This document shows positions 7,864 to 50,528 of a stretch of DNA of 64,000 bases, piece after piece. Every line of letters begins with the position of its first letter. The stretch's first letter is position 1. Source of the stretch: Agromyces sp. Marseille-P2726 (GTDB lineage Bacteria; Actinomycetota; Actinomycetes; Actinomycetales; Microbacteriaceae); contig NZ_CADDWM010000015.1 in NCBI RefSeq assembly GCF_902809835.1, positions 124,001 through 188,000 on the forward strand. The letters run 5' to 3'. The notes below the pieces were generated by a model that worked only from the letters and a program-made list of their open reading frames with translations, did not search any database and was not told where the DNA came from. Made by a program: the position numbers and the translations under genes.

Positions 7864-7887
7864 CCCATCCATAGCTACGATGGGGGG

Positions 7888-39487: not shown

Positions 39488-39574
39488 CAGATATCGTTCT
39501 GATCGGGGCTTTCTTGGGATGGTCGCATGCCGCCAGTGGAATGCGATTCGGAATGCGCTCCGACATTCGACACG

Positions 39575-40859
39575 GTCATCCCTGGTAGTGGTGTAGCGCC
39601 GTGTCCTTCGTTGTAGATGGTTAGGCTCAGTTTGAGTACGGTGTCGGTGCTCACCTCGTTTTCGATGTCGGGGACGAGGGTGAGGCGGCTTCTGGCGAGG
39701 ATGTCCAGGCCGAGGTAGCGGCGGCCTTCGGCCCATTCGTCGGTCTGCTCGGCCAGGACGGCGCCGACGAGGCGGATGATCGTGTCGCGGTTCGGGAAGA
39801 TGCCCACCGAGTTGGTGCGGCGGCGAATCTCTCGGTTGAGCCGCTTGTTCGGGTTGTTCGACCAGATCTGGGCCCAGAGCCCTTCGGGGAACCCGGTGAA
39901 TGCGAGGATGTCCGCGCGGGTGGTGTCGAGGTGCTCGAAGGCGTCGGGGAGCTTGCCGTCGACGTAGTCCAGGAGCCGGTCGAACTGGGCGTGCACGGCA
40001 TCGGCGTCAGGTTGGTCGTGGACCGAGTGCAGCATCGCCTTCACGGCCGGCCACATGGCCTCCGGCGTCACCGACATCAGGTTCGCGGCGTAATGCGTGC
40101 GACACCTCTGCCAAGTTGCGCCGGGGAGGTTCACGACGATCGCTTCGACCAGCCCGGCGTGCGCGTCGCTGGTCACGAGCCGGACACCGGACAGGCCGCG
40201 GGCGACGAGGTCGGCGAAGAAGCTGTTCCACGCCGGGCCGGTCTCACTGTTCGCCACACGCAGCCCAAGCACCTCTCGTCGGCCGTCGGCGTTCACGCCG
40301 GTGGCGATCACGACGACCGCGTTGATCACCCGGCCGCCTTCGCGAACCTTCATCGTCAGCGCGTCCGCGGCGACGAACGTGAACGGGCCGGAGTCGCCGA
40401 GGGGTCGGTGGCGGAACTCGTCGACGTGCTCATCGAGCTCGGCCGCCATCCTCGACACCTGCGACTTCGACAGGCTGTGGATGCCGAGGGTCTTGACGAG
40501 CTTGTCCATCCGTCGGGTGGATACGCCGGCAGGTCGGCGACGACGGTGATCATCGCGGACTCGGCCCGTTTGCGGTGCTCGAGCAGCCACTCCGGCAAGT
40601 ACGTCCCGGCCCGCAGCTTCGGGATCTGAACGTCAATCGTGCCGACCCGCGTGTCCAGGTCGCGGCGCCGGTACCCGTTGCGCTGGGTCCTCCGGTCCGG
40701 GGAACGCTGCCCCCATTCGGCGCCGACGACGGCATCCGCGTCAGCGGACAGCAGCGCGTTAATCATGGTCTGCAGCAGCTGCCGCATCAGATCCGGGGAC
40801 GCGTCCGCGCGGGCTTCGCCGAGCAGGCCGGCAGGGTCGACAATGTGAGGTGCGGTCAT
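39575..40859 (-). pseudogene. IS256-family transposase, frameshifted
   Basis: Mutator-type DDE transposase. The N-terminal part (MTAPHIVDPAGLLGEARADASPDL to MITVVADLPA) and the C-terminal part (from VSTRRMDKLVKTLGIHSLSKSQVS) are in different frames; the frame changes near 40525 after VVAD, where other family members have several more residues, so a small deletion is likely. The rest is well conserved (VTSDAHAGL, WQRCRTHYAANLM, NPNKRLNREIRRRTN). Beyond the element the downstream frame runs on without a stop into the tRNA; this is a chance extension. Confidence 0.85.
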
Positions 40860-40978
40860 CGTGTTGATTCCGTTCGAGTGAGTTGCAGGAGATTCCTCGA
40901 AGGATCACACGGTTGCCGCGCTCACGTCAGTAGCGACGAGCCCGATCCCCGCGCTACACCACTATGCGGGACTCAACT
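39575..40978 (-). mobile_element. IS256-family element with a broken transposase
   Basis: About 1.40 kb. Inner inverted repeats TAGTGGTGTAGCGC (39586-39599) and GCGCTACACCACTA (40951-40964) are perfect, with TCCC/GGGA preserved further out. The 9-base sequence TTCGACACG occurs directly outside both ends (39566-39574 and 40979-40987) and may be the target duplication; the two end sequences differ by a few bases so the exact ends are uncertain. The element contains one transposase pseudogene. Confidence 0.75.
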
Positions 40979-41118
40979 TTCGACACGCCCCGACTTGCTC
41001 GATCGATCGCGCAGGTACTCGATCGATCTCGGCCGGCCTCGGACGTTTCGGCGGGCGATGGGCCCCGTCACGCCGAACCCGCTCTCATCGGCGGCCATCT
41101 GACGAGACGCGGGGTGTC

Positions 41119-41131
41119 ACAGTGACTGTGC
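41119..41131. promoter_or_regulatory. Short perfect palindrome at the end of the LuxR gene
   Basis: CACAGTGACTGTG, six complementary bases on each side of a central G, about 15 bases after the LuxR stop. Either a weak hairpin at the end of the transcript or a dimer-binding site. The surrounding 40988-41146 stretch has no gene. Confidence 0.3.
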
Positions 41132-41146
41132 CGTCCGTGCGGATGG

Positions 41147-42004
41147 TCAAGGACGGCTCCGTTCCGCTTGGTCGACTGTAGCTGGGCTGGTGTCAGTTCC
41201 GTCGTCGTGCGTGGCGACCTCTGCCTCGATCGTCTGAATCGCTGGAGCTCGCGCAGTGAACGAGGGCAGTTGGAGCACACGAAGCTCGTGGGCGAGAATG
41301 ACGGCGCTGACGCGGTCGTTCACGTGGAGCTTGCGATAGAGGTTCTCCTGGTGCTTGCTGACAGTCCGAGGACTGATTCGCAGTCGACTGGCGATCGCGA
41401 CGGTGGTGAGGCCACGAGCGACGAGCCCTAGCACTGCGAGTTCCCGTGAGGTGAGTCGAGCGTCTGCGACGGCGTTCGCATCCACCGAACCGGGCACGAA
41501 GCACTCTGCCAAGACGGCGCAATGCGCGTCCAATGCTGCGATCAGCGGTCGAAGCAGCTCGAGATCATCGGTCGCACCCTGGAGCGGTTCCGCTGAGGAT
41601 ACGCCGAGCCACCGGTGATCCATGTTCTGGCGTGGTCGCAAAGGGACGAAGACGAAGTCCTTGATGTTCTGATCGCGAAGGCTCTGCAGGAGCGTCCGCG
41701 ACCACGAGGTTGTGAAGCGCTGCGCCTCCATAAGGCTGTGCGTGTGCGGATCTCCCGTCGAACGGTACAGCAGAGCGAGCGGATGATCGCCGATCTGCGG
41801 CACGTAAGGTGCAGCATCGACGGCCGTCTCGTATACGCCGAAACGAGCACGCGACTCGGTGAAATCAATGGTTCCGGTAGCGTCGGAAGAGAAGTACGTT
41901 GCCAGTTCGTGGCAGATCTCCACCATCGGATCATGGTCTAGCGGCCGCGAGAGCAATTCGGCCGTCAGGTCGATCCACGAATTCCGGAAACTCGAACTGC
42001 TCAT
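41147..42004 (-). CDS. LuxR/GerE-type transcriptional regulator
   Basis: 285 residues, with a helix-turn-helix of the GerE class near 184-241 (LTSRELAVLGLVARGLTTVAIASRLRISPRTVSKHQENLYRKLHVNDRVSAVILAHEL). The N-terminal 180 residues (SSDATGTIDFTESRARFGVYET, DFVFVPLRPRQNMDHRWLGVSSAEP) look like a divergent GAF/PAS-type ligand domain but are not recognised. No receiver domain, so it is not a two-component regulator. The ATG has GGAG ahead. It is transcribed away from the three-gene cassette, whose upstream region it shares, so control of the cassette is likely. Confidence 0.85.
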   Translation of the reverse strand: MSSSSFRNSWIDLTAELLSRPLDHDPMVEICHELATYFSSDATGTIDFTESRARFGVYETAVDAAPYVPQIGDHPLALLYRSTGDPHTHSLMEAQRFTTSWSRTLLQSLRDQNIKDFVFVPLRPRQNMDHRWLGVSSAEPLQGATDDLELLRPLIAALDAHCAVLAECFVPGSVDANAVADARLTSRELAVLGLVARGLTTVAIASRLRISPRTVSKHQENLYRKLHVNDRVSAVILAHELRVLQLPSFTARAPAIQTIEAEVATHDDGTDTSPATVDQAERSRP

Positions 42005-42296
42005 GTGATCTCCAGCGAACGAGCTGCGCGTTATCTCGCACTGTGGAGCCGAGCGACGCCGTCGCTCGGCGGCGACCCGTCCAGCCCGAAACGGATTGAC
42101 CACGTTGCCCGGACTTCTGCGATCAGTATCCCGCTGCTCGTGGGAACCGGCAAGGAGCTTTGACGGCGTCGCGTAGCACACCGGGTGCAGCACAGCAATG
42201 CGCACCTGTGCGTAGAGACGCCCCAAGGCGTGCGGCCGCACCATGGGTATACCGCCTTCGGCGGGCCCCCCAAATGCGCGACTCTGGGAGGATGCC
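42005..42296. promoter_or_regulatory. Divergent control region between the LuxR gene and the three-gene cassette
   Basis: 292 bases with no gene. Visible: a perfect 10-bp hairpin GCCGAGCGAC-GCC-GTCGCTCGGC (42048-42070) in the LuxR leader, CGCAC-CT-GTGCG (42201-42212), TATACC at 42248-42253 as a possible -10 for the cassette, and CCGCC-TTC-GGCGG at 42252-42264. Any of the inverted repeats could be the regulator site; none has been tested. Confidence 0.5.
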
Positions 42297-44081
42297 ATGA
42301 CTTCGAAGTCACCGGCGAACGACGCCCACACATCTGATAAACGAGGGACGTCTCGTGCGCTCACGGCGATGAGAACGCCGAACCCCGTCCACTCCGGTGC
42401 GGAGCGGGAAGAGGCGGGGCTTCATTTCATGGCGGATGACCGCATCGACGTCACGTCGATGAAATCGCCCCGACGACTCGCAATGGACGCCGTGTTCCAC
42501 GATCGAGCCGACCTCAGGCAGGGGCTCACGGAGAACCTTGCCCCCGCGCGAACACGCAACGCGGCGGCCGAAACCCGGGTCGAGGCGGCGTTCGCGGCGT
42601 TTCCGCGATCGCGGTCCCGGGTGACGGGCATCCCGAACGGCGACCTCCCCGCCGAGGCGGCGTTGTTCGACGTGATGAGTGCCGGGATTCGCGCTCGACT
42701 GAACGCACGCCAGCCGCGCCACCCGGGATCCGGCATCGCCATCCGTTCCGACAGTCCGTTGATCCGTCGCGCACGAAGCGGCTCCCACCGCGACCGTTCG
42801 CTGGGGACGGTCCGGGTCGACGAACTCCTCGACCACCTCAACAACCACCGTCCCGAAGTGGTCACGCTTTCGAGCGGGCGAGCCCTCACCGTGAGCCAGG
42901 CCAAGGCCCGCGCCCGGGCGATCCTGGACGAGATCGATGGCGGTGCTGGCCACGCGAACGCCGAGGTCGACATCGACGCGCTCGAGGGAACCAGCGTCAC
43001 TGAGGTCGGCGACGGTGACCCGGACACCGTGAATGCGGTACAGGCGTTCGTCACGGAGAAGGTCGACACCCAGATGACCAGGGTGGTCGCCCCCGAGGAC
43101 CCCGTGAGTTTTGGACTTATCCCGCTCCCCGATGAGGGAGGCAACGCGAACCTCCCGACCACGTTCCAACTGCGGCCCGGCCCGACGGACGTCACCGCGT
43201 ATCACGACTTCAGCACCCTTCAGGTCGCATTCGAGAACGTTTGGCTGGAGATCCTCGACGGCGAACTCGAAACCCTCGGCCGCGACCTGTACCGCGAGTA
43301 CGTCGACTTAAAGGACTTCATCGGCTACGACGAAGACACCGCGGAGAGACCGATCAGTTCGCTGCAGGACCTTGCTTGGCTCATGGGCCGGGTCCGGGAG
43401 CTGAGCCGGATGTCGCAGGACGCGATACCGGCCGGCAGCGGAGGCGGCGGCTCCTCCTCCGGGAAGCCCTCGACCGGAACGAACGAGATCGCTGAGGGGT
43501 TCGAGGACTTCCTGAACAGCCTTCCCGGAGGACGCGGCCTCACCGGCGTCCTCACGCTCGGCGTCAGCGAGTTCGTTCTGTGGTTCTTGAAGGAGACCGG
43601 CAGCATCGGCACCAAGCCGGCATTGACATGGGACGACGTGCTGAACGGCAGGCAGCTCAACCGGGGTGACCGGATCCTGGCATCCGTCGCCGAGAACCGC
43701 GTCCCGCAGGGCTCGATCGAGCTCGTACTGCGGACCGACATTTCGACGATCCAAGGGAAGGTCGGGAAGAGGAACGTCGCATTCCAGCGCTTCGACGAGC
43801 CATCGGGCAAGTTCGTGAACGTCGCCGTAGCAGGAAACTTCTATCCCGCGAGGGCAGGGGAGCCAGTGGAGTCCGGCACCGTCGCCCTGTCCGACAGCCA
43901 AGGCAACGCACAGTTCTGGGAGCACCGCGTCCTCATCGCATCCACCTCACTCGACGCCGGACTGCTCGAGTTCTCATCGCAGGAAACCGAGACCACGCTC
44001 TCCGGCCGGTACGTCCTCGGTGACCTCGACAAGGTCGTTCCCGACGGCGCGAGCGTGACCTTCTACTGGAAGGACTCCTGA
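42297..44081 (+). CDS. Cassette protein 1, unknown function
   Basis: Not recognised. 594 residues. Residues 1-150 are Arg-rich and probably disordered (RTPNPVHSGAEREEAGLHF, RSRSRVTGIPNGDLPAEAALFDVMSAGIRARL). The middle contains VRVDELLDHLNNHRPEVVTLSSGRALTVSQAKARARAILDEIDGG and a long helical part ending DLAWLMGRVRELSRMSQDA. A Gly/Ser linker (about 380-395) leads to a C-terminal beta-rich domain (LTWDDVLNGRQLNRGDRILASVAENRVP to VPDGASVTFYWKDS). No signal peptide, no catalytic motif that I can name. GGGAGG precedes the ATG. It is the first gene of the cassette, with the second starting one base after its stop. Confidence 0.75.
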   Translation: MTSKSPANDAHTSDKRGTSRALTAMRTPNPVHSGAEREEAGLHFMADDRIDVTSMKSPRRLAMDAVFHDRADLRQGLTENLAPARTRNAAAETRVEAAFAAFPRSRSRVTGIPNGDLPAEAALFDVMSAGIRARLNARQPRHPGSGIAIRSDSPLIRRARSGSHRDRSLGTVRVDELLDHLNNHRPEVVTLSSGRALTVSQAKARARAILDEIDGGAGHANAEVDIDALEGTSVTEVGDGDPDTVNAVQAFVTEKVDTQMTRVVAPEDPVSFGLIPLPDEGGNANLPTTFQLRPGPTDVTAYHDFSTLQVAFENVWLEILDGELETLGRDLYREYVDLKDFIGYDEDTAERPISSLQDLAWLMGRVRELSRMSQDAIPAGSGGGGSSSGKPSTGTNEIAEGFEDFLNSLPGGRGLTGVLTLGVSEFVLWFLKETGSIGTKPALTWDDVLNGRQLNRGDRILASVAENRVPQGSIELVLRTDISTIQGKVGKRNVAFQRFDEPSGKFVNVAVAGNFYPARAGEPVESGTVALSDSQGNAQFWEHRVLIASTSLDAGLLEFSSQETETTLSGRYVLGDLDKVVPDGASVTFYWKDS

Positions 44082-44082
44082 C

Positions 44083-46137
44083 ATGCCGACCTACAGCGCA
44101 GCTGCCGCGGCGGCTCGATCCGCGGATGCCTCCGAGAGCAACCCGCTCGGTGGAACCAGCCGACTCGCCTACCTGCTGACCCAGCTCGAGAACAAGCTCG
44201 CCGAACGGTACGCCTTCGACGTGTTCGAACCCGGAGCCATCAACTTCGGCCTCATGGTCACGTATCGGCAGAAATGGGTGCCGCAGGACTACCAGGTCGG
44301 AGAACTGGTCAAGACCATCCCGCTCGCTCCGAAGGAGATCAAGCGGTACACGACCAAGACGGTCTCCAAGAAGACCCGAACGCAGAAGGAGCTCGACGAC
44401 AACCTTCGGACCCAACGCGACGAGTCGACCGACACAACCCGAGCGGACGAGGAGATCGTCACGAAGGCGGTCAAGAAGACGAACTTCAACCTCACGGCCC
44501 AGGAGACGTTCGGGAAGGAAGGCTCGTGGTCCGTGACAGCGACCCAGAACGCAGGTGGTAGCTCCGAGAACGAATCCCACAAGACGAAGAAGGACTTCCG
44601 CGAGGCGGTCATGAAGAGCGCCAAGGAGTACCGAGAGCAGCACAAGGTCGAAGTGGATGTCTCGGAGATTGCAGAGGACGAGAGCACGGGATTCCACGAG
44701 ATCCAGAATCCCAACGACGAACTCGCTGTCACGTACTTGCTCTACGAACTGGAGCGCACCTATCTGATCAGCGAGGACCTGTACAAGCTGACACCGGTGA
44801 TCTTCGTCGCCAATGAAGTGCCCGCGCCGAACGCGATCGATGATGCGTGGTTGATCGAGCACGATTGGATCCTGAATCGCGCCATTCTCGACGATTCCTT
44901 CCGCCCCGCACTCGAGTACCTCACCAAGAGCTTCACCGGCGCCGAAGTCAACATCAAGATCCTCGAAGCGAACGCGGCCGCGGCGAAGGAGCTGGTCGAC
45001 AAGCTGAACCAGCAGTTGCAGCTGCAAGTGGGCATCCTCGCCGCGAACCAGCGAAGCCTCGATGACGCGGTCGGCCAGATGATCGCGAGCCAGCGAGTCG
45101 AGGGAGGGCTGACCTTCGTCAAGGGCATCTTCGATCCGCTCAAGATCACCGGCGACGCAGATACCGGCGCGGTCGACGCTGCAGAGGCGATGGTCGAATA
45201 CGCGCGGGACACCCTCAACCGGGCTGAGCGGGAGCGCGCTCGCCTGCTCTCCCTGGTGGAGGTCGCCGCGACCGCGCTCCAAACGGCCGTCGACAAGCTG
45301 GCACTCGCGGTCAAGGAACACTACGACCAGGTAGCGGCGATCGATCGACTGCGGGTCCACGTCAAGGAAAACATCCTCTACTACATGCAGGCGATCTGGC
45401 GACAGGAACCACCCGACCAGCGCTACTTCCGCCTCTACGATCTGGATGTTCCGGAAATCGTCGCCGAGGCAAGCGCAGAACTGACGACGGCAGGGCCCGG
45501 CACGACAGCTCGACGCGGACTCATCGACGCGATCCGCGGCGACGACTACGCGATGACGATCGTAACTGTCCCGAACTACCGCATCGAGGCCCGCAAGCTG
45601 CGCGATGTCGCAGATCTGGACAACGTCCTCGCGTACACCGGCAACTACATGGTCTTCGCCCTCAACCGGAACAACTTCATCACCCTGCGCATGATGCAGG
45701 ACTACCTCGAAGTGGGGAACCAGGTCGGCCTCCGAGACCCCGACGAGTTCGGAAACCTGAGCATTACGCAGTTGCGCGACCTCGCCGTGAGAATCAAGGC
45801 CGAGGATCCGACCGCTTGGGAGACCATCAGAGAAGACTTCGAGGAGAGGCTCATCGATCGGCTCAGTTCGCCGCGGATGGAGGGTGAACTCGTGATCGTA
45901 CCCAGCTCCTCGCTCTACATCGAATGCCTGGTCGGCACCCACCCGCTCCTGGAGGACTTCAAGCTGATCCACCGCGCGCTCGACGTGAAGAAGGTGCAAG
46001 CCGAGGTTCGTCGCGCTGAACTTGAGAACGTCCGTCTGGCCGCCAGGGCCCTCGAGGGAGAACGCAGCGATCCCGACATCGAGAAGACAATCCTCGTGCG
46101 CGGCGATGCCATTCCGACGATGCCGGTCGACGACTAG
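44083..46137 (+). CDS. Cassette protein 2, unknown function
   Basis: Not recognised. 684 residues, no signal peptide or hydrophobic membrane helix. An N-terminal domain (FGLMVTYRQKWVPQDYQVGELVKTIPLAPKEIKRYTTK) leads into a Ser/Thr-rich stretch with alternating polar residues (NFNLTAQETFGKEGSWSVTATQNAGGSSENES) between helical Lys/Glu-rich segments. Around 292-335 and 364-430 are long heptad-like helices (LEANAAAAKELVDKLNQQLQL, AEAMVEYARDTLNRAERER), probable coiled coil. The C-terminal 200 residues (YAMTIVTVPNYRIEARKLRDV and IVPSSSLYIECLVGTHPLLEDFKLIHRALD) form another folded domain. Adjacent to gene 1, so the two are translated together. Large structural or assembly protein is the best guess. 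Confidence 0.75.
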   Translation: MPTYSAAAAAARSADASESNPLGGTSRLAYLLTQLENKLAERYAFDVFEPGAINFGLMVTYRQKWVPQDYQVGELVKTIPLAPKEIKRYTTKTVSKKTRTQKELDDNLRTQRDESTDTTRADEEIVTKAVKKTNFNLTAQETFGKEGSWSVTATQNAGGSSENESHKTKKDFREAVMKSAKEYREQHKVEVDVSEIAEDESTGFHEIQNPNDELAVTYLLYELERTYLISEDLYKLTPVIFVANEVPAPNAIDDAWLIEHDWILNRAILDDSFRPALEYLTKSFTGAEVNIKILEANAAAAKELVDKLNQQLQLQVGILAANQRSLDDAVGQMIASQRVEGGLTFVKGIFDPLKITGDADTGAVDAAEAMVEYARDTLNRAERERARLLSLVEVAATALQTAVDKLALAVKEHYDQVAAIDRLRVHVKENILYYMQAIWRQEPPDQRYFRLYDLDVPEIVAEASAELTTAGPGTTARRGLIDAIRGDDYAMTIVTVPNYRIEARKLRDVADLDNVLAYTGNYMVFALNRNNFITLRMMQDYLEVGNQVGLRDPDEFGNLSITQLRDLAVRIKAEDPTAWETIREDFEERLIDRLSSPRMEGELVIVPSSSLYIECLVGTHPLLEDFKLIHRALDVKKVQAEVRRAELENVRLAARALEGERSDPDIEKTILVRGDAIPTMPVDD

Positions 46138-46171
46138 CGGTTCTTGACGCCCGGAGCCGGATTCGGAACGG

Positions 46172-47599
46172 ATGAAGATCGCGATGACGGAGAAGCTCGA
46201 CGACCAGCGGGCCACCCAGGACCGTCGTACAGATGACCGGTTCGGTCGGCGCGACGCGGCAAGACCAAGCCACCCTCCACAGGGGCCCGGCTGGGATCGA
46301 GCTCCGGCCGCGTCGGGTTCGATCCTCGTTCCGCCTCGCAACTGCTGGGACTTCATCACCTTCGATCCGGAGCTCAGCGACACGGTCACGGGCGTCGGGG
46401 TGCACCGTGTGATCCGCGAGCAGGTCGGCGAGTACATCGCGCGGCAGGGGTACGGTCCGAATGTGAAAGTTCGGATTCCGGGGGCGTCCTTCGACCATTA
46501 TCGAGACAAGAACACATTGTCGATCGGACACAAGGGGGGCGGCCACGGCGATGTGGACCTCGCGTTCTGCTCCATCGACAAGAAGACCATGCTGGTGGCA
46601 GAGGTGAAGCCTGCGAACACCGAGGCAGCGACCGGTGATCTCCAGATCGGGTTCTACATTGAGAAAGCGAATGAGGATGCGTCCCTCAAAACGAAGCTCG
46701 GCGTGAAGGAGTTCGCGCGGATGGGTGCGAGGCACGCCCGACTTCCTACCGAGGTCGTGTACCTCAGTCGACGTTTCCAGGTGAAGTGGTGGGAGTGCGT
46801 GGATGGCGTCATCCTGTATAAGGAGATCGACAAGAAGCGACGCAACGAGAAGGGGAAGCAGAAGGAGAAGGCTTCGAAGGGGTCGATCGGGCCGACCGTG
46901 GAGATTCAGGGCCGGAAGATCCAGCTCCTCACCTCTGCGCCACGGCCTCGCACTTATGCCGATTGGGTTCCGTCGGCGCTGCGCCGGGACATCGAGGCGA
47001 ACGCGCTCCCAGACGGTGTATATCGCGGTCGATACACCGCGATGTGGCCATCGGGCTACTCCGCTGACGTCGTTGTGTGGGTGGACACGGGTCCGCTCGG
47101 TCGCGAGCACTTCTACTATCACGAGTTTCCGCGAGATCCGGCATTCTATGACGACCTCGCCCGAAAGGTGGGCCTATCGGATTGGCAACGAGACCTAGTC
47201 CGGTCGACGCTCGTTGAGTACAACGAGGACATATGGCGGCGAATCGCCCCAGACCCAGTAACCGGCGTCCAATCGAGCATGAACCCCTACCATGCTCGAG
47301 ATGACCTCCGCGTCTACTACGCCGACCGCCTCAAAGCCGTCGTCGGGGGAGCAGCCACGGTCATTGTCACAGCGGGCGTCACGGCGGCGGCATCCACCAC
47401 CATTACGGCGGCGCAGCGTGGCGTCGTGAGCAAATTGATTGAACGCGAAGCTGAGCTCGTGCGGTCCGAGCCGCTGCCAAGCTGGGTGATGGCGGCGATC
47501 AGAGCCGGCGCGGCCGAGGCCAAAGCCGCGGGCGGAGGAGGCCCCGGAGGCGCCCCACCCATAGGGGCGTCAATTCCCAAACCCGTTACTGTTCGCTGA
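46172..47599 (+). CDS. Cassette protein 3, PD-(D/E)xK-like protein of unknown function
   Basis: 475 residues. The segment GHGDVDLAFCSIDKKTMLVAEVKPAN places Asp127/Asp129 in a first strand and Glu144-x-Lys146 in the next, the spacing and composition of a PD-(D/E)xK nuclease-like active site; the call rests on this pattern alone. The rest includes FYIEKANEDASLKTKLGVKEFARMGARHARLPTEVVYL and YHEFPRDPAFYDDLARKVGLSDWQ. A hydrophobic Ala/Thr-rich stretch around 389-414 (AVVGGAATVIVTAGVTAAASTTITAA) could be a membrane or low-complexity segment and the C-terminus is Gly/Pro-rich. The start could be the ATG here or the one 12 bases later. Codon use is less GC-biased than in housekeeping genes here. Confidence 0.7.
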   Translation: MKIAMTEKLDDQRATQDRRTDDRFGRRDAARPSHPPQGPGWDRAPAASGSILVPPRNCWDFITFDPELSDTVTGVGVHRVIREQVGEYIARQGYGPNVKVRIPGASFDHYRDKNTLSIGHKGGGHGDVDLAFCSIDKKTMLVAEVKPANTEAATGDLQIGFYIEKANEDASLKTKLGVKEFARMGARHARLPTEVVYLSRRFQVKWWECVDGVILYKEIDKKRRNEKGKQKEKASKGSIGPTVEIQGRKIQLLTSAPRPRTYADWVPSALRRDIEANALPDGVYRGRYTAMWPSGYSADVVVWVDTGPLGREHFYYHEFPRDPAFYDDLARKVGLSDWQRDLVRSTLVEYNEDIWRRIAPDPVTGVQSSMNPYHARDDLRVYYADRLKAVVGGAATVIVTAGVTAAASTTITAAQRGVVSKLIEREAELVRSEPLPSWVMAAIRAGAAEAKAAGGGGPGGAPPIGASIPKPVTVR

Positions 47600-47659
47600 A
47601 AGGGTCTGCGCGCGCACCGTTTCCTGTGACACTCGAGCTGTCGTCCGCGTCTTGCTCGA

Positions 47660-49062
47660 GGTGGCGTCCCGCTGTGTGGTGGAGTTTCTCGACACCGTGC
47701 GGGTCAGCTTGGTTGATTATGCCGCAGCGAGTTCTGGGATGGCCACCTCCTCGGGTTCGATGTTCAGGAGCTTCATGGAGTGCTCGCTGAAGTAGCGGCG
47801 GTCGGCGCCGTCCCACTCGTCGTGCTGCTCGATCAGGACGTGCCCGGCCAGGCGGAGCAGCGCGGCGGGGTTCGGGAACGTCCCGACGACGTCCGTGCGG
47901 CGTTTGATCTCCTTGTTTACGCGCTCGAGGGGGTTCGTGGACCAGATCTGCCGCCAATGCGCGACCGGGAAGCTCGTGAACGCGAGCAGGTCATCGCGGT
48001 CGTCCTCGAGCATGCCGGCGACCTTCGGGTGCGACCTCGTGAGCATCCGGACGACCTCGTCGAACTGGGCGTGCACGTGGCCGGCATCGGGTTGGGCGAA
48101 GATCGTGCGGATGATCGACGCGACCATCGGGCCCGCGGTCTTTGGCACGTTCGCGAGCACGTTGCGCATGAAATGCACCCGGCACCGCTGCCACACCGCA
48201 CCCTGCAGCACGGTCTGGGTCGCGGCGATCAACCCGGTGTGCGCGTCCGAGATGACCAGCTGCACCCCGCCCAGCCCGCGCGCCTTGAGCGACCGCAGGA
48301 ACGTGGTCCAGAACGGTTGCGACTCGGTGTCGCCGACCTCGAACCCGAGCACCTCACGGCGCCCGTCCTGTGCGACGCCGACCGCGACGACGACGGCCTG
48401 GGACACGACTCGCCGGCCGACCCGGGCCTTGCAGTAGGTCGCGTCCAGGAACACGTAGGGGTAGGTGCTGTCGGCGAGGGGCCGGTCCCGGAACGCGGCG
48501 ACGTCCTCGTCAAGGTTCGCGCAGATCCGCGAGACCTCCGACTTCGAGATCCCGGTGTCGGCGCCGAGGGCCTTCACCAGGTCATCGACCTTCCGAGTCG
48601 ACACGCCGTGCACGTACGCCTCCATCACGACCGCGAACAACGCCTGATCCACCCGGCGGCGCCGCTCCAGCAACGACGGGAAGAACGACCCGGTCCGCAG
48701 CTTCGGGATCCGCAACTCCAACTCTCCCGCCGTGGTCGTCAGCGTGCGAGGCCGAGTGCCGTTGCGCTGCGCGGTGCGTGACTCGGTGCGTTCGAACGGG
48801 GCGGCACCGATGAACGCGGCCGCTTCCGCGTCGATCAACTCCTGGTAGAGGGCTTCGGTCGCGACCCTAATCCGGTCGCTGACATCGGTGAGTTTCAGTT
48901 CCCCGAGCAGCTCGAGGAGGGCAGACTGGTCAAGAGCCATCGTGCGTATGTGTCCTTCCGTGAGATTCCTAGACAGTTCTCACCGACCATCGCACGATGG
49001 CTCACCACGTCAAAGACGTGACACTCAACACCGAGAACTACACCACCACAAGGGACGCCACC
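47660..49062 (-). mobile_element. Intact IS256-family insertion sequence
   Basis: 1403 bp with perfect outer inverted repeats GGTGGCGTCCC (47660-47670) and GGGACGCCACC (49052-49062), extended imperfectly inward for about 20 bases, and a 9-bp direct repeat CTTGCTCGA on both sides (47651-47659 and 49063-49071). The direct repeats are the target duplication typical of IS256. The transposase frame is uninterrupted, so the element looks recently inserted and possibly active. Confidence 0.92.
47717..48940 (-). CDS. IS256-family transposase
   Basis: Mutator-type transposase, 407 residues, with the DDE acidic triad in FLDATYCKARV, LVISDAHTGL and NPLERVNKEIKRRTDVVG. The AAAFIGAAPFERTESRTAQRNGTRPR N-terminal motif and WQRCRVHFMRNVLANVPK are standard. 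Reading frame complete with its ATG just after an AAGGA-type site. It is a different element from the broken one 7 kb upstream (only distantly similar proteins), so the two copies are not a composite-transposon pair. Confidence 0.95.
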   Translation of the reverse strand: MALDQSALLELLGELKLTDVSDRIRVATEALYQELIDAEAAAFIGAAPFERTESRTAQRNGTRPRTLTTTAGELELRIPKLRTGSFFPSLLERRRRVDQALFAVVMEAYVHGVSTRKVDDLVKALGADTGISKSEVSRICANLDEDVAAFRDRPLADSTYPYVFLDATYCKARVGRRVVSQAVVVAVGVAQDGRREVLGFEVGDTESQPFWTTFLRSLKARGLGGVQLVISDAHTGLIAATQTVLQGAVWQRCRVHFMRNVLANVPKTAGPMVASIIRTIFAQPDAGHVHAQFDEVVRMLTRSHPKVAGMLEDDRDDLLAFTSFPVAHWRQIWSTNPLERVNKEIKRRTDVVGTFPNPAALLRLAGHVLIEQHDEWDGADRRYFSEHSMKLLNIEPEEVAIPELAAA

Positions 49063-49244
49063 CTTGCTCGATGCGGAAGGAGGGTCCGTATGTGTGCGAG
49101 CCGCACCCCAATACGGTCATCTGGTACCGACTGGGACCCGACGAAGCCTGACCGACGCCCTCGCTCCGAGCGGCCCCCCCGAGGGATGAGCCTCAGTGCG
49201 GGCAGAGCATGCAAGAGTCATCAGCTTCTGGACACAATCCATGT
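49063..49244. other. Gap between the IS256 element and the serpin gene
   Basis: About 180 bases downstream of the insertion. It begins with the right copy of the target duplication and contains no gene, tRNA or clear promoter; a run of seven C residues lies near 49175-49181. I see nothing else of note. Confidence 0.5.
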
Positions 49245-50528
49245 ATGACGCGAGCTACCCCGGCTGCCGCAGAGTTCCGTGTATCGAAGCGCAGTCGCGC
49301 GCTCGGGGCCGGGCTAGCTGTGGCCGTCGCGCTCGTACTCGTCGGCTGTGGCGGAATCGCTGACCAGCCGGGCGGAGGCGCGCGGGACACCGTGGACGCC
49401 GATCTCGCGGGCAGCCTGTCGGCCGGGGACGCTGCCGCGGCGGCCGAGGGCGTCAACGCGTTCGGCTTCGATCTGCACACCTCGGTGGCCGAGGATGGCG
49501 AGAATACGGTCACCTCGCCGCTGTCGGCGTCGGTGCTGCTGGCGATGGTGGCCGCCGGTGCCGGCGGAGACAACGCCGAGGAGATGGTCGAACTGCTGGG
49601 CCTGGACGGGCCGCGGGACACACGGTATGCGGCGCTGCTCGCCGATCTGGTCGATGCTGGTGACGTCACGTTGGAGATCGCGAACGCGCTGTGGGCAGCG
49701 GAAGGGTATCCGTTCGAGGACGACTTCGTCTCGTTCGTGCAGCGCACGTACGGTGCGACGCTCGATGAGGTCGACCTCGGCTCGCAGGATGCCGCCGACG
49801 AGATCGACGCCTGGGTCGACGAACGCACCAAGGGGCTGATCGATGAGATCGCTGCGGATCTGGGCCTGCCCGATCCGCAGGCGGTGCTGGTGCTGCTGAA
49901 TACGGTGTACTTCCAAGGCACCTGGACCACCGCGTTCGACGAGGACGACACCTGGGAGATGCCATTCGCCCTGGCCGATGGCGACGACGTGATGGTGCCC
50001 ACCATGCATCGCAGCGACGTCGAGGTGGCGACCTCGTTCGGTGAGGGCTTCCAGATGCTGCGGCTTCCCTACGGTGACGACGAGCGGTTCGGCATGGAGG
50101 TGCTGCTGCCCGACGAAGACGTGGCCCTCGACGAGCTTCTCGACGACCTCGACGCCGAGGTCTGGCGGAATGCGGTCGACGGCCTTCAGCCGGCCACCGT
50201 CTCCCAGATCGCCCTGCCGCGCTTCGAGCTCGAGTGGGACGCCAGCCTCAAGGAGGTGCTGCAATCGCTCGGGATGGCGTCTGCGTTCGGCGACGGGGAC
50301 TTCACCCCGATGTCACCCGCCGACCCGTTCCTCGACACCGTCGTGCAGAAAACCTACATCCAGGTCGACGAGACGGGCACCGAGGCCGCCGCGGTCACGG
50401 GAGGGATGATGGCGCAGTCCGCAGGACCGCCGCCATTCCAGGTCGACCGGCCCTTCGCGTTCACCGTCAGCGACCGCGAGACCGGCGCCGTGCTCTTCCT
50501 CGGCAGCGTCCACGACCCCCGCGGCTGA
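49245..50528 (+). CDS. Lipoprotein serpin (serine protease inhibitor family)
   Basis: 427-residue serpin anchored outside the cell. N-terminus KRSRALGAGLAVAVALVLVGC with lipobox Cys35. The fold follows: NTVTSPLSASVLLAMVAAGAGG, VLLNTVYFQGTWTTAFDEDDTWEMPF, VPTMHRSDVEVA, the hinge GTEAAAVTGG and the shutter-region VDRPFAFTV, VLFLGSV. The exposed loop (about 377-397) reads GTEAAAVTGGMMAQSAGPPP; alignment by eye with alpha-1-antitrypsin puts P1 at Ser, which is tentative. Likely inhibits an extracellular serine protease. The start could also be an ATG 36 bases earlier. Confidence 0.88.
   Translation: MTRATPAAAEFRVSKRSRALGAGLAVAVALVLVGCGGIADQPGGGARDTVDADLAGSLSAGDAAAAAEGVNAFGFDLHTSVAEDGENTVTSPLSASVLLAMVAAGAGGDNAEEMVELLGLDGPRDTRYAALLADLVDAGDVTLEIANALWAAEGYPFEDDFVSFVQRTYGATLDEVDLGSQDAADEIDAWVDERTKGLIDEIAADLGLPDPQAVLVLLNTVYFQGTWTTAFDEDDTWEMPFALADGDDVMVPTMHRSDVEVATSFGEGFQMLRLPYGDDERFGMEVLLPDEDVALDELLDDLDAEVWRNAVDGLQPATVSQIALPRFELEWDASLKEVLQSLGMASAFGDGDFTPMSPADPFLDTVVQKTYIQVDETGTEAAAVTGGMMAQSAGPPPFQVDRPFAFTVSDRETGAVLFLGSVHDPRG

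Follow-up and report, generated by a model that had tools for sequence, protein, structure and literature searches.

A cassette of three genes, here called P1, P2 and P3, was analysed in a 64,000-nucleotide stretch of DNA (the window) from Agromyces sp. Marseille-P2726 (contig NZ_CADDWM010000015.1, positions 124,001 to 188,000), a strain with a genome of 3.56 Mb. We consider it fairly likely that the cassette is a horizontally moving module resembling polymorphic toxin systems, in which a family of carrier proteins is combined with swappable and partly tagged partners, toxins among them. In the arrangement that we propose, P1 and P2 would together form one carrier, and P3 would be its cargo, a nuclease toxin of the PD-(D/E)XK type that reaches the carrier via a short N-terminal tag of RG[T/I]xx-like repeat units. 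The carrier would be the conserved delivery part and the toxin would be swapped between genomes, because elsewhere the same carrier precedes other proteins, some of which are tagged and some of which have pre-toxin or toxin domains. The original prediction for this region, a cassette of unfamiliar proteins with a divergent LuxR-type regulator, had suggested a delivered effector or a defence system. Its gene order and spacing were confirmed, with all three genes lying head to tail on the + strand, 1 base between P1 and P2, 34 bases between P2 and P3, and the LuxR-type gene pointing away from them (Table 1). Also as predicted, P1, P2 and P3 had no convincing family match in Pfam, NCBIfam, PADLOC or PHROGs.

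Table 1. Positions in the window of the cassette genes, their parts and the neighbouring elements
Feature	Position	Strand	Description
P1	42297-44081	+	594 codons; putative N-terminal half of the carrier as a gene of its own
P1 C-terminal domain	43614-44078	+	residues 440-594, after a Gly/Ser-rich stretch; conserved in L022, L023 and L025
P2	44083-46137	+	684 codons; putative C-terminal half of the carrier
Variable hairpin of P2	44950-45342	+	residues ~290-420; low conservation between two conserved blocks
Signature NILYYMQAIW of P2	45370-45399	+	residues 430-439
P3	46172-47599	+	475 codons; candidate interchangeable toxin gene, PD-(D/E)XK-like
N-terminal five-residue repeat tag of P3	46205-46246	+	residues 12-25, QRATQDRRTDDRFG; RFG included by eye
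PD-(D/E)XK-like core of P3	46538-46612	+	residues 123-147; D129, E144 and K146, behind them Q158 and Y162, conserved with L023
LuxR-type regulator	41147-42004	-	divergent; start is the ATG at 42004; GerE E=1.5e-17
Left IS element	39573-40979	-	Mutator/IS256-type transposase, broken frames; PF00872 E=3.5e-95
Right IS element	47660-49063	-	Mutator/IS256-type transposase at 47717-48940; PF00872 E=1.6e-135
Cassette-bearing interval	40980-47659	.	between both IS elements

P1 and P2 as one conserved carrier

Relatives of P2 were found at 76 loci in a scan of 84,980 species genomes, with 30-58% identity at 75 of them and 23% at the remaining one. On plasmids, tblastn detected relatives that cover at least 80% of P2 in a haloarchaeon (39% identity), two Sinorhizobium records and a Ciceribacter; these four bring the set to 80 loci (individual loci are given by L numbers). 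In the plasmid relatives P1 and P2 form a single frame of 1,169-1,326 codons, or 1,369 codons in Sinorhizobium terangae (L018), where a LuxR-type helix-turn-helix stretch lies upstream of the carrier in the same frame, from position 7880. The carrier frame spans 1,004-1,378 codons in 61 of the 80 loci; the other 19 are shorter, some of them cut by contig ends. P1 had matches (E<=0.01) at 69 of the 80 loci, in the carrier frame itself at 65 and in a separate preceding gene at four (L022, L023, L024 and L025), the latter being the arrangement of the window. By this comparison, P1 and P2 appear as two halves of one large protein, fused in most loci. The co-occurrence of the three genes expected by the original prediction is thus found for P1 and P2, usually as a fusion, and is not found for P3, which has one homologue.

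Since P1, P2 and P3 each have relatives at corresponding positions, we take them to be more than chance open frames. An upstream ATG is available as an alternative start of P1, which would extend it to 612 codons. Opposite P2, an open frame of 834 codons on the - strand (43933-46437) probably arose as a mere shadow of the high-GC coding sequence, because protein conservation favours the + strand.

P1 had been described as ending in a beta domain after a Gly/Ser linker. A conserved C-terminal domain is indeed found there, and the Gly/Ser-rich stretch before it is present, although less conserved than the domain in the loci compared (Table 1). The small N-terminal domain of many fused carriers weakly resembles carboxypeptidase-regulatory/transthyretin-like domains, with weak matches to CarboxypepD_reg in 5 of 27 (best E=8.5e-4) and to TTR-52 in 2 of 27, and one profile match in the PDB, to a lipoxygenase (E=9e-4). 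No such small N-terminal domain was seen in P1 of the window, and a common signal peptide was not apparent by eye among the carrier N-termini inspected.

P2 was aligned with its relatives from 66 of the 76 loci (67 rows; 10 short, cut or near-identical sequences were left out). Residues N430, I431, Y434, M435, I438 and W439 of its signature are shared by at least 90% of the rows, while the variable hairpin is probably a coiled coil. The earlier description of P2 as a large coiled-coil/beta assembly protein fits the sequence, with the 67-row profile matching nothing in the PDB beyond the coiled-coil level. A membrane hairpin was considered and found no support, as the mean Kyte-Doolittle value over 19 residues exceeded 1.6 in just 2 of the 67 rows. 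A match of P2 to dehydroquinase was judged to be due to chance (E=0.0094, below the cut-off), given its length of 61 residues and the lack of support from the family profile against the PDB, where the single sequence gave the same weak match at E=0.25.

Two genus relatives contain distant relatives of the P2 N-terminal block in larger frames (L101 6317-10897 and L102 7484-13504), both adjoining a 323-residue gene that looks much the same in the two; the superfamily perhaps has a second branch here, one that is paired with a different partner. Stretches of 24-30 residues with 79-80% identity to the P2 signature region were also observed on rhizobial plasmids, at L020 6001-6090, near the nodulation genes nolF/nolG, and in 13 further matches. 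They are perhaps remnants of carriers.

A conserved slot with exchangeable occupants

At 75 of the 80 loci, an open reading frame (ORF) of at least 100 codons on the same strand starts between -200 and +600 bases from the carrier end, with a median gap of 18 bases. Same-strand ORFs of at least 200 codons at -30 to 150 bases follow 59 of 73 carriers, compared with 65 of 236 control ORFs. The 75 downstream proteins are between 126 and 1,148 residues long, and most have no relation to each other, with a mean column identity of 6%. The position of the slot is thus conserved and its occupant is not. Some occupants are related in part. L039 and L088 have C-terminal stretches of about 170 residues in common at 47% identity, and their carriers are 26% identical; L032 and L093 have only C-terminal parts in common, and L044, L050 and L060 about 600 N-terminal residues.

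A domain scan (E<=0.01) of P3 and 74 other downstream proteins, 75 in all (L028, identical to L026, was left out), matched 22 families. PT-TG, a pre-toxin domain of polymorphic toxins, was found in six proteins (L016, L017 and L037 among them) and Ntox4 in two, and there was one match each to WHH, Col-Pyo DNase, Colicin-DNase, cytidine deaminase (L048) and PDDEXK_4, the WHH and Colicin-DNase matches falling in one protein (L066). One slot protein matched a model for DNase effectors of the type VI secretion system (T6SS). Beyond the toxin families, the matches were mostly weak or unrelated to toxins.

A repeat tag on the downstream proteins

Some downstream proteins carry RG[T/I]xx repeats with a period of five residues, for example RGTxDRGT, at their start or in an inner stretch. 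Counts were made on 67 non-redundant proteins, after nine of 76 (the 75 and P3) had been dropped as near-copies (five) or as very short or transposase-like frames (four). RG[TI] occurred 86 times in these 67 proteins, compared with a mean of 26 and a maximum of 44 in shuffled sequences. Its density in the first 30 residues was 114 per 10,000 residues against 6.5 in flanking ORFs, and the 80 carriers contained it 11 times. The five-residue repeat RGx..RGx was present in 11 of the 67 proteins (shuffles: mean 0.15, maximum 2 in 500) and in 1 of 611 flanking ORFs, and an extended motif in 18 of the 67 (shuffles: mean 2.1, maximum 10). Of 60 proteins that had not been used for training, a tag profile placed 8 above the 99% mark of the control.

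When the profile was built without P3, residues 12-22 of P3 (QRATQDRRTDD) scored higher than 609 of the 611 flanking ORFs, and this score was reached by 2 of 5000 shuffles. The two flanking ORFs above P3, which were kept in the control, are each the third gene after a carrier, one in L046 and one in L076. By these counts, the downstream set is enriched for the tag and P3 bears what reads as a variant of it. We propose that the tag binds the carrier. Three tagged genes follow the carrier in a row in L076 (11976-15100), and in its near-copy L046 (10034-12200) the second and third are tagged, which suggests several cargoes per carrier.

P3 as a putative nuclease

The nuclease-like motif noted earlier in P3 is present, and it is conserved in the sole homologue of P3 among the 75 downstream proteins, found behind an Actinotalea carrier (L023 12012-13334; 37% identity over residues 58-398). 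The motif of P3, GHGDVDLAF...VAEVKP, follows with that of L023 the common pattern GxVDLA(F/Y)...E(V/I)KP, then Q and Y. A PD-(D/E)XK nuclease core consists of D...ExK, often followed by Q. The shared pattern fits such a core, although neither Pfam nor the PDB confirmed it. P3 is probably a DNA-cutting enzyme of the PD-(D/E)XK type, judging from these two proteins, and would cut nucleic acid in the cell that it enters. No relative of P3 was found on plasmids, and among 386 genomes of a sample of its phylum only its own genome matched.

Distribution of the carrier family

In the P2 alignment, 65 of the 67 rows fall in 11 named phylum-level groups, with archaea contributing three rows. The phyla are mixed on a quick maximum-likelihood tree of the carriers, on which paralogues can also split groups: the labels require 31 changes, compared with a minimum of 10 and a mean of 40 after shuffling. 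The carrier of the window groups with those of Rhizocola, Actinotalea and a Terriglobia metagenome-assembled genome. Within phyla the family is rare and patchy. Among 396 genomes of the same phylum as Agromyces, we found its own P2 copy and one distant match; among 395 genomes of the phylum of Chitinophaga (G495, Bacteroidota), the centre genome and three distant matches. A protein search with P2 in 100 genomes including its own gave the own copy and partial distant matches in four others. There was no relative in 50,697 phage records or in viral contigs. The mixing of phyla on the tree agrees with horizontal movement of the module between distant lineages.

Weighing the toxin-delivery reading

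The idea of a delivered effector agrees with the layout, a conserved large protein followed by variable and partly toxin-like genes in many phyla. Given this layout and the toxin domains, the carrier would bring the toxin into other cells. Several results weigh against the proposed module. In most of the 75 scanned downstream proteins no domain was recognised, whether of a toxin or otherwise, and neither Pfam nor the PDB has a match for P3. Slots are not always occupied by a toxin, since one of them contains an IS630-type transposase. The tag occurs in a minority of the proteins (18 of 67 by the extended motif), was spotted in the very data used for the counts, and is absent from the P3 homologue in L023. 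The P2 hairpin is not membrane-like, hence pore formation has no sequence support. We also considered that N-terminal parts of the toxins follow the carrier while C-terminal parts roam, but with 22 pairs of N-type and 8 others, N-part similarity did not track carrier similarity significantly better than C-part similarity did (p=0.16).

An immunity gene beside the toxin is a usual feature of polymorphic toxin systems. Here, unlike in classical examples, a same-strand ORF of at least 90 codons lies close behind only 16 of 60 slot genes, and a few of these 16 are further tagged genes; in the window, a frame of 54 codons is the sole ORF between P3 and the right insertion sequence (IS) element. This scarcity of adjacent ORFs suggests that the targets are other than kin, or that immunity is encoded elsewhere. 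Right behind the slot gene of four myxococcal loci stands a gene whose start looks, by eye, hydrophobic or like that of a lipoprotein (L067 9799-10533, L071 13912-14838, L073 13863-15335 and L091 13965-14696). These are possible immunity or accessory genes.

A more far-reaching version, which we put forward only tentatively, is that the carriers constitute a separate delivery class of bacteria and archaea with no secretion machine alongside, in which a giant carrier would load RG[T/I]xD-tagged cargo and carry it into foreign cells. A rival reading, which we consider rather unlikely, is that an extracellular contractile injection system (eCIS), with its genes at another place in the genome, uses both the carrier and the toxin as cargo or accessories. 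The Agromyces genome does hold an eCIS-type cluster on contig 12 (L104-L105), which is not the contig of the cassette; it comprises a Pvc16-like marker gene and what looks by eye like a sheath protein. This genome has PF14065 and does not have CIS_TMP. Co-occurrence was counted in 29 carrier genomes, its own and those of 28 of the 76 loci, mostly isolates by choice. PF14065 was present in 15 of the 29 genomes and in 1 of the 4 plasmid records. By phylum, it was present in 5 of 6, 5 of 7 and 5 of 15 carrier genomes, against backgrounds of 25 of 296 (a count that includes the Agromyces genome itself), 28 of 148 and 9 of 150 (the latter two including the centre genomes). The Mantel-Haenszel odds ratio was ~14 (p ~4e-12) on 28 of the 29 genomes (L055, of another phylum and PF14065-negative, was left out), with phyla taken from titles and genome size, relatedness and ecology uncontrolled. 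CIS_TMP was found in 6 of the 29, all among the 15 with PF14065, so that 14 carrier genomes had neither marker. Furthermore, no eCIS family was seen repeatedly in the 10 kb around carriers (a survey that isolated or divergent eCIS genes may escape), and DUF4157 was not among the 22 families of the downstream proteins. Co-occurrence with eCIS is thus strong in this sample, yet the carrier does not need it.

The other possibility raised in the original prediction, an intracellular anti-phage defence in which P1 and P2 detect an infection and an exchangeable effector, P3 for example, attacks the phage DNA by cutting it or brings about the death of the cell, appears improbable. A conserved large protein with exchangeable, partly nuclease-like partners, a patchy distribution and an IS-flanked island would all suit such a system. 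However, PADLOC gave it no support for P1-P3, some downstream proteins have domains of secreted toxins (pre-toxin TG, Ntox4, colicin-type DNase), and the downstream set is enriched for an N-terminal repeat tag; the lack of relatives in phage records and viral contigs neither supports nor excludes it. Finally, a self-directed toxin or addiction module holding an island or plasmid in place would agree with the four plasmid copies and with the position of the window copy between IS elements, and is very improbable, as no antitoxin-like gene lies close behind most slot genes (any close same-strand ORF in 16 of 60) and the carriers exceed 1,000 residues, while addiction modules need far smaller proteins.

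Relation to known systems

A carrier with a swapped toxin is, as a general idea, already known. The toxin-delivery module proposed here shares exchangeable toxin domains, some toxin families and transfer across lineages with polymorphic toxin systems (Zhang et al. 2012, PMC3482391), and differs in that its conserved part is a separate protein family, unnamed in the libraries searched. The words transthyretin, carboxypeptidase and RGT did not occur in the 300,000 characters searched of that survey. As for the defining features of such systems, a conserved part (with a putative delivery role) and variable partners are found here, and known toxin families in a minority that does not include P3; an adjacent immunity gene is mostly not found, either in the 60 slot genes or in the window. 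We therefore use the name polymorphic toxin for the way in which the cassette would work, not for strict membership.

Like eCIS-associated toxins (Danov et al. 2024, PMC11297309), the candidate cargo has a putative N-terminal signal region, occurs in bacteria and archaea and shows a statistical co-occurrence of markers. Unlike for those toxins, no eCIS genes were seen nearby, DUF4157 was lacking, and 14 of 29 carrier genomes were without both markers. No specific conserved sequence was detected in the eCIS cargo signal according to the same paper, whereas a repeat motif is enriched in the carrier-linked proteins. Polymorphic toxin systems have also been predicted for archaeal islands whose loci contain colicin D and PD-DExK domains (PMC6393860); DUF4157 proteases are named there as the signature. 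Tc toxin complexes (PMC7861908) are similar in their mode of working, with large carrier subunits and a variable toxin end, but no match to TcA, TcB or TcC was obtained in Pfam, or in the PDB with the 67-row profile. The umbrella toxin particles of Streptomyces (PMC11062931) are also multi-part polymorphic toxins of actinobacteria, with a secreted repeat-containing toxin, lectins and loci across Actinobacteria. Neither lectin nor repeat families, in contrast, matched P1-P3, and the carrier is also found well outside Actinobacteria. We found no description of the carrier, its spread or the tag in the accessible parts of the open-licence literature, a scope that does not take in subscription papers and preprints.

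This work would thus add a carrier family that is unnamed in the searched libraries, and present in bacteria and archaea, to the candidate parts of toxin delivery. The motif, as a putative address label, offers a handle for seeking further cargo, and hypothetical proteins of many phyla become a testable carrier-cargo system.

Genomic surroundings of the cassette

The divergent LuxR-type regulator had been regarded as a component of the cassette. Of 81 loci, three have a LuxR-type gene adjoining the carrier (the window, L042 and L018), and two have one farther off (L030 and L081). We therefore reject it as part of the module and regard it as a local gene not conserved with the carrier. Against PADLOC, it matched solely the DNA-binding parts of CARF-type models.

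When 59 further genomes of the genus were searched at E<=1e-20, with five candidate stretches scored in each, no match fell within the interval between the two IS elements; one of these genomes lacked any match to the searched DNA. The best plasmid matches of a gene flanking the cassette come from Streptomyces, Arthrobacter and Nonomuraea, in line with an actinobacterial host. Its GC content is 0.61-0.68, compared with 0.65-0.73 in the surroundings, and the interval is probably foreign. Inverted repeats were identified at 39579-39599/40951-40971 in the left element and at 47660-47686/49036-49062 in the right one. The left element has matches of 73-89% identity in genus relatives, and the right one has a second, 100% identical copy elsewhere in the host genome. 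We reject a composite transposon made up of two equal IS copies, as the elements differ (~72-76% identity in their best common stretches) and a second, identical copy exists for the right one alone. Just past the right element, a gene at 49209-50528, which we take from its C-terminus to be serpin-like, has DNA matches at 86-89% in four genus relatives.

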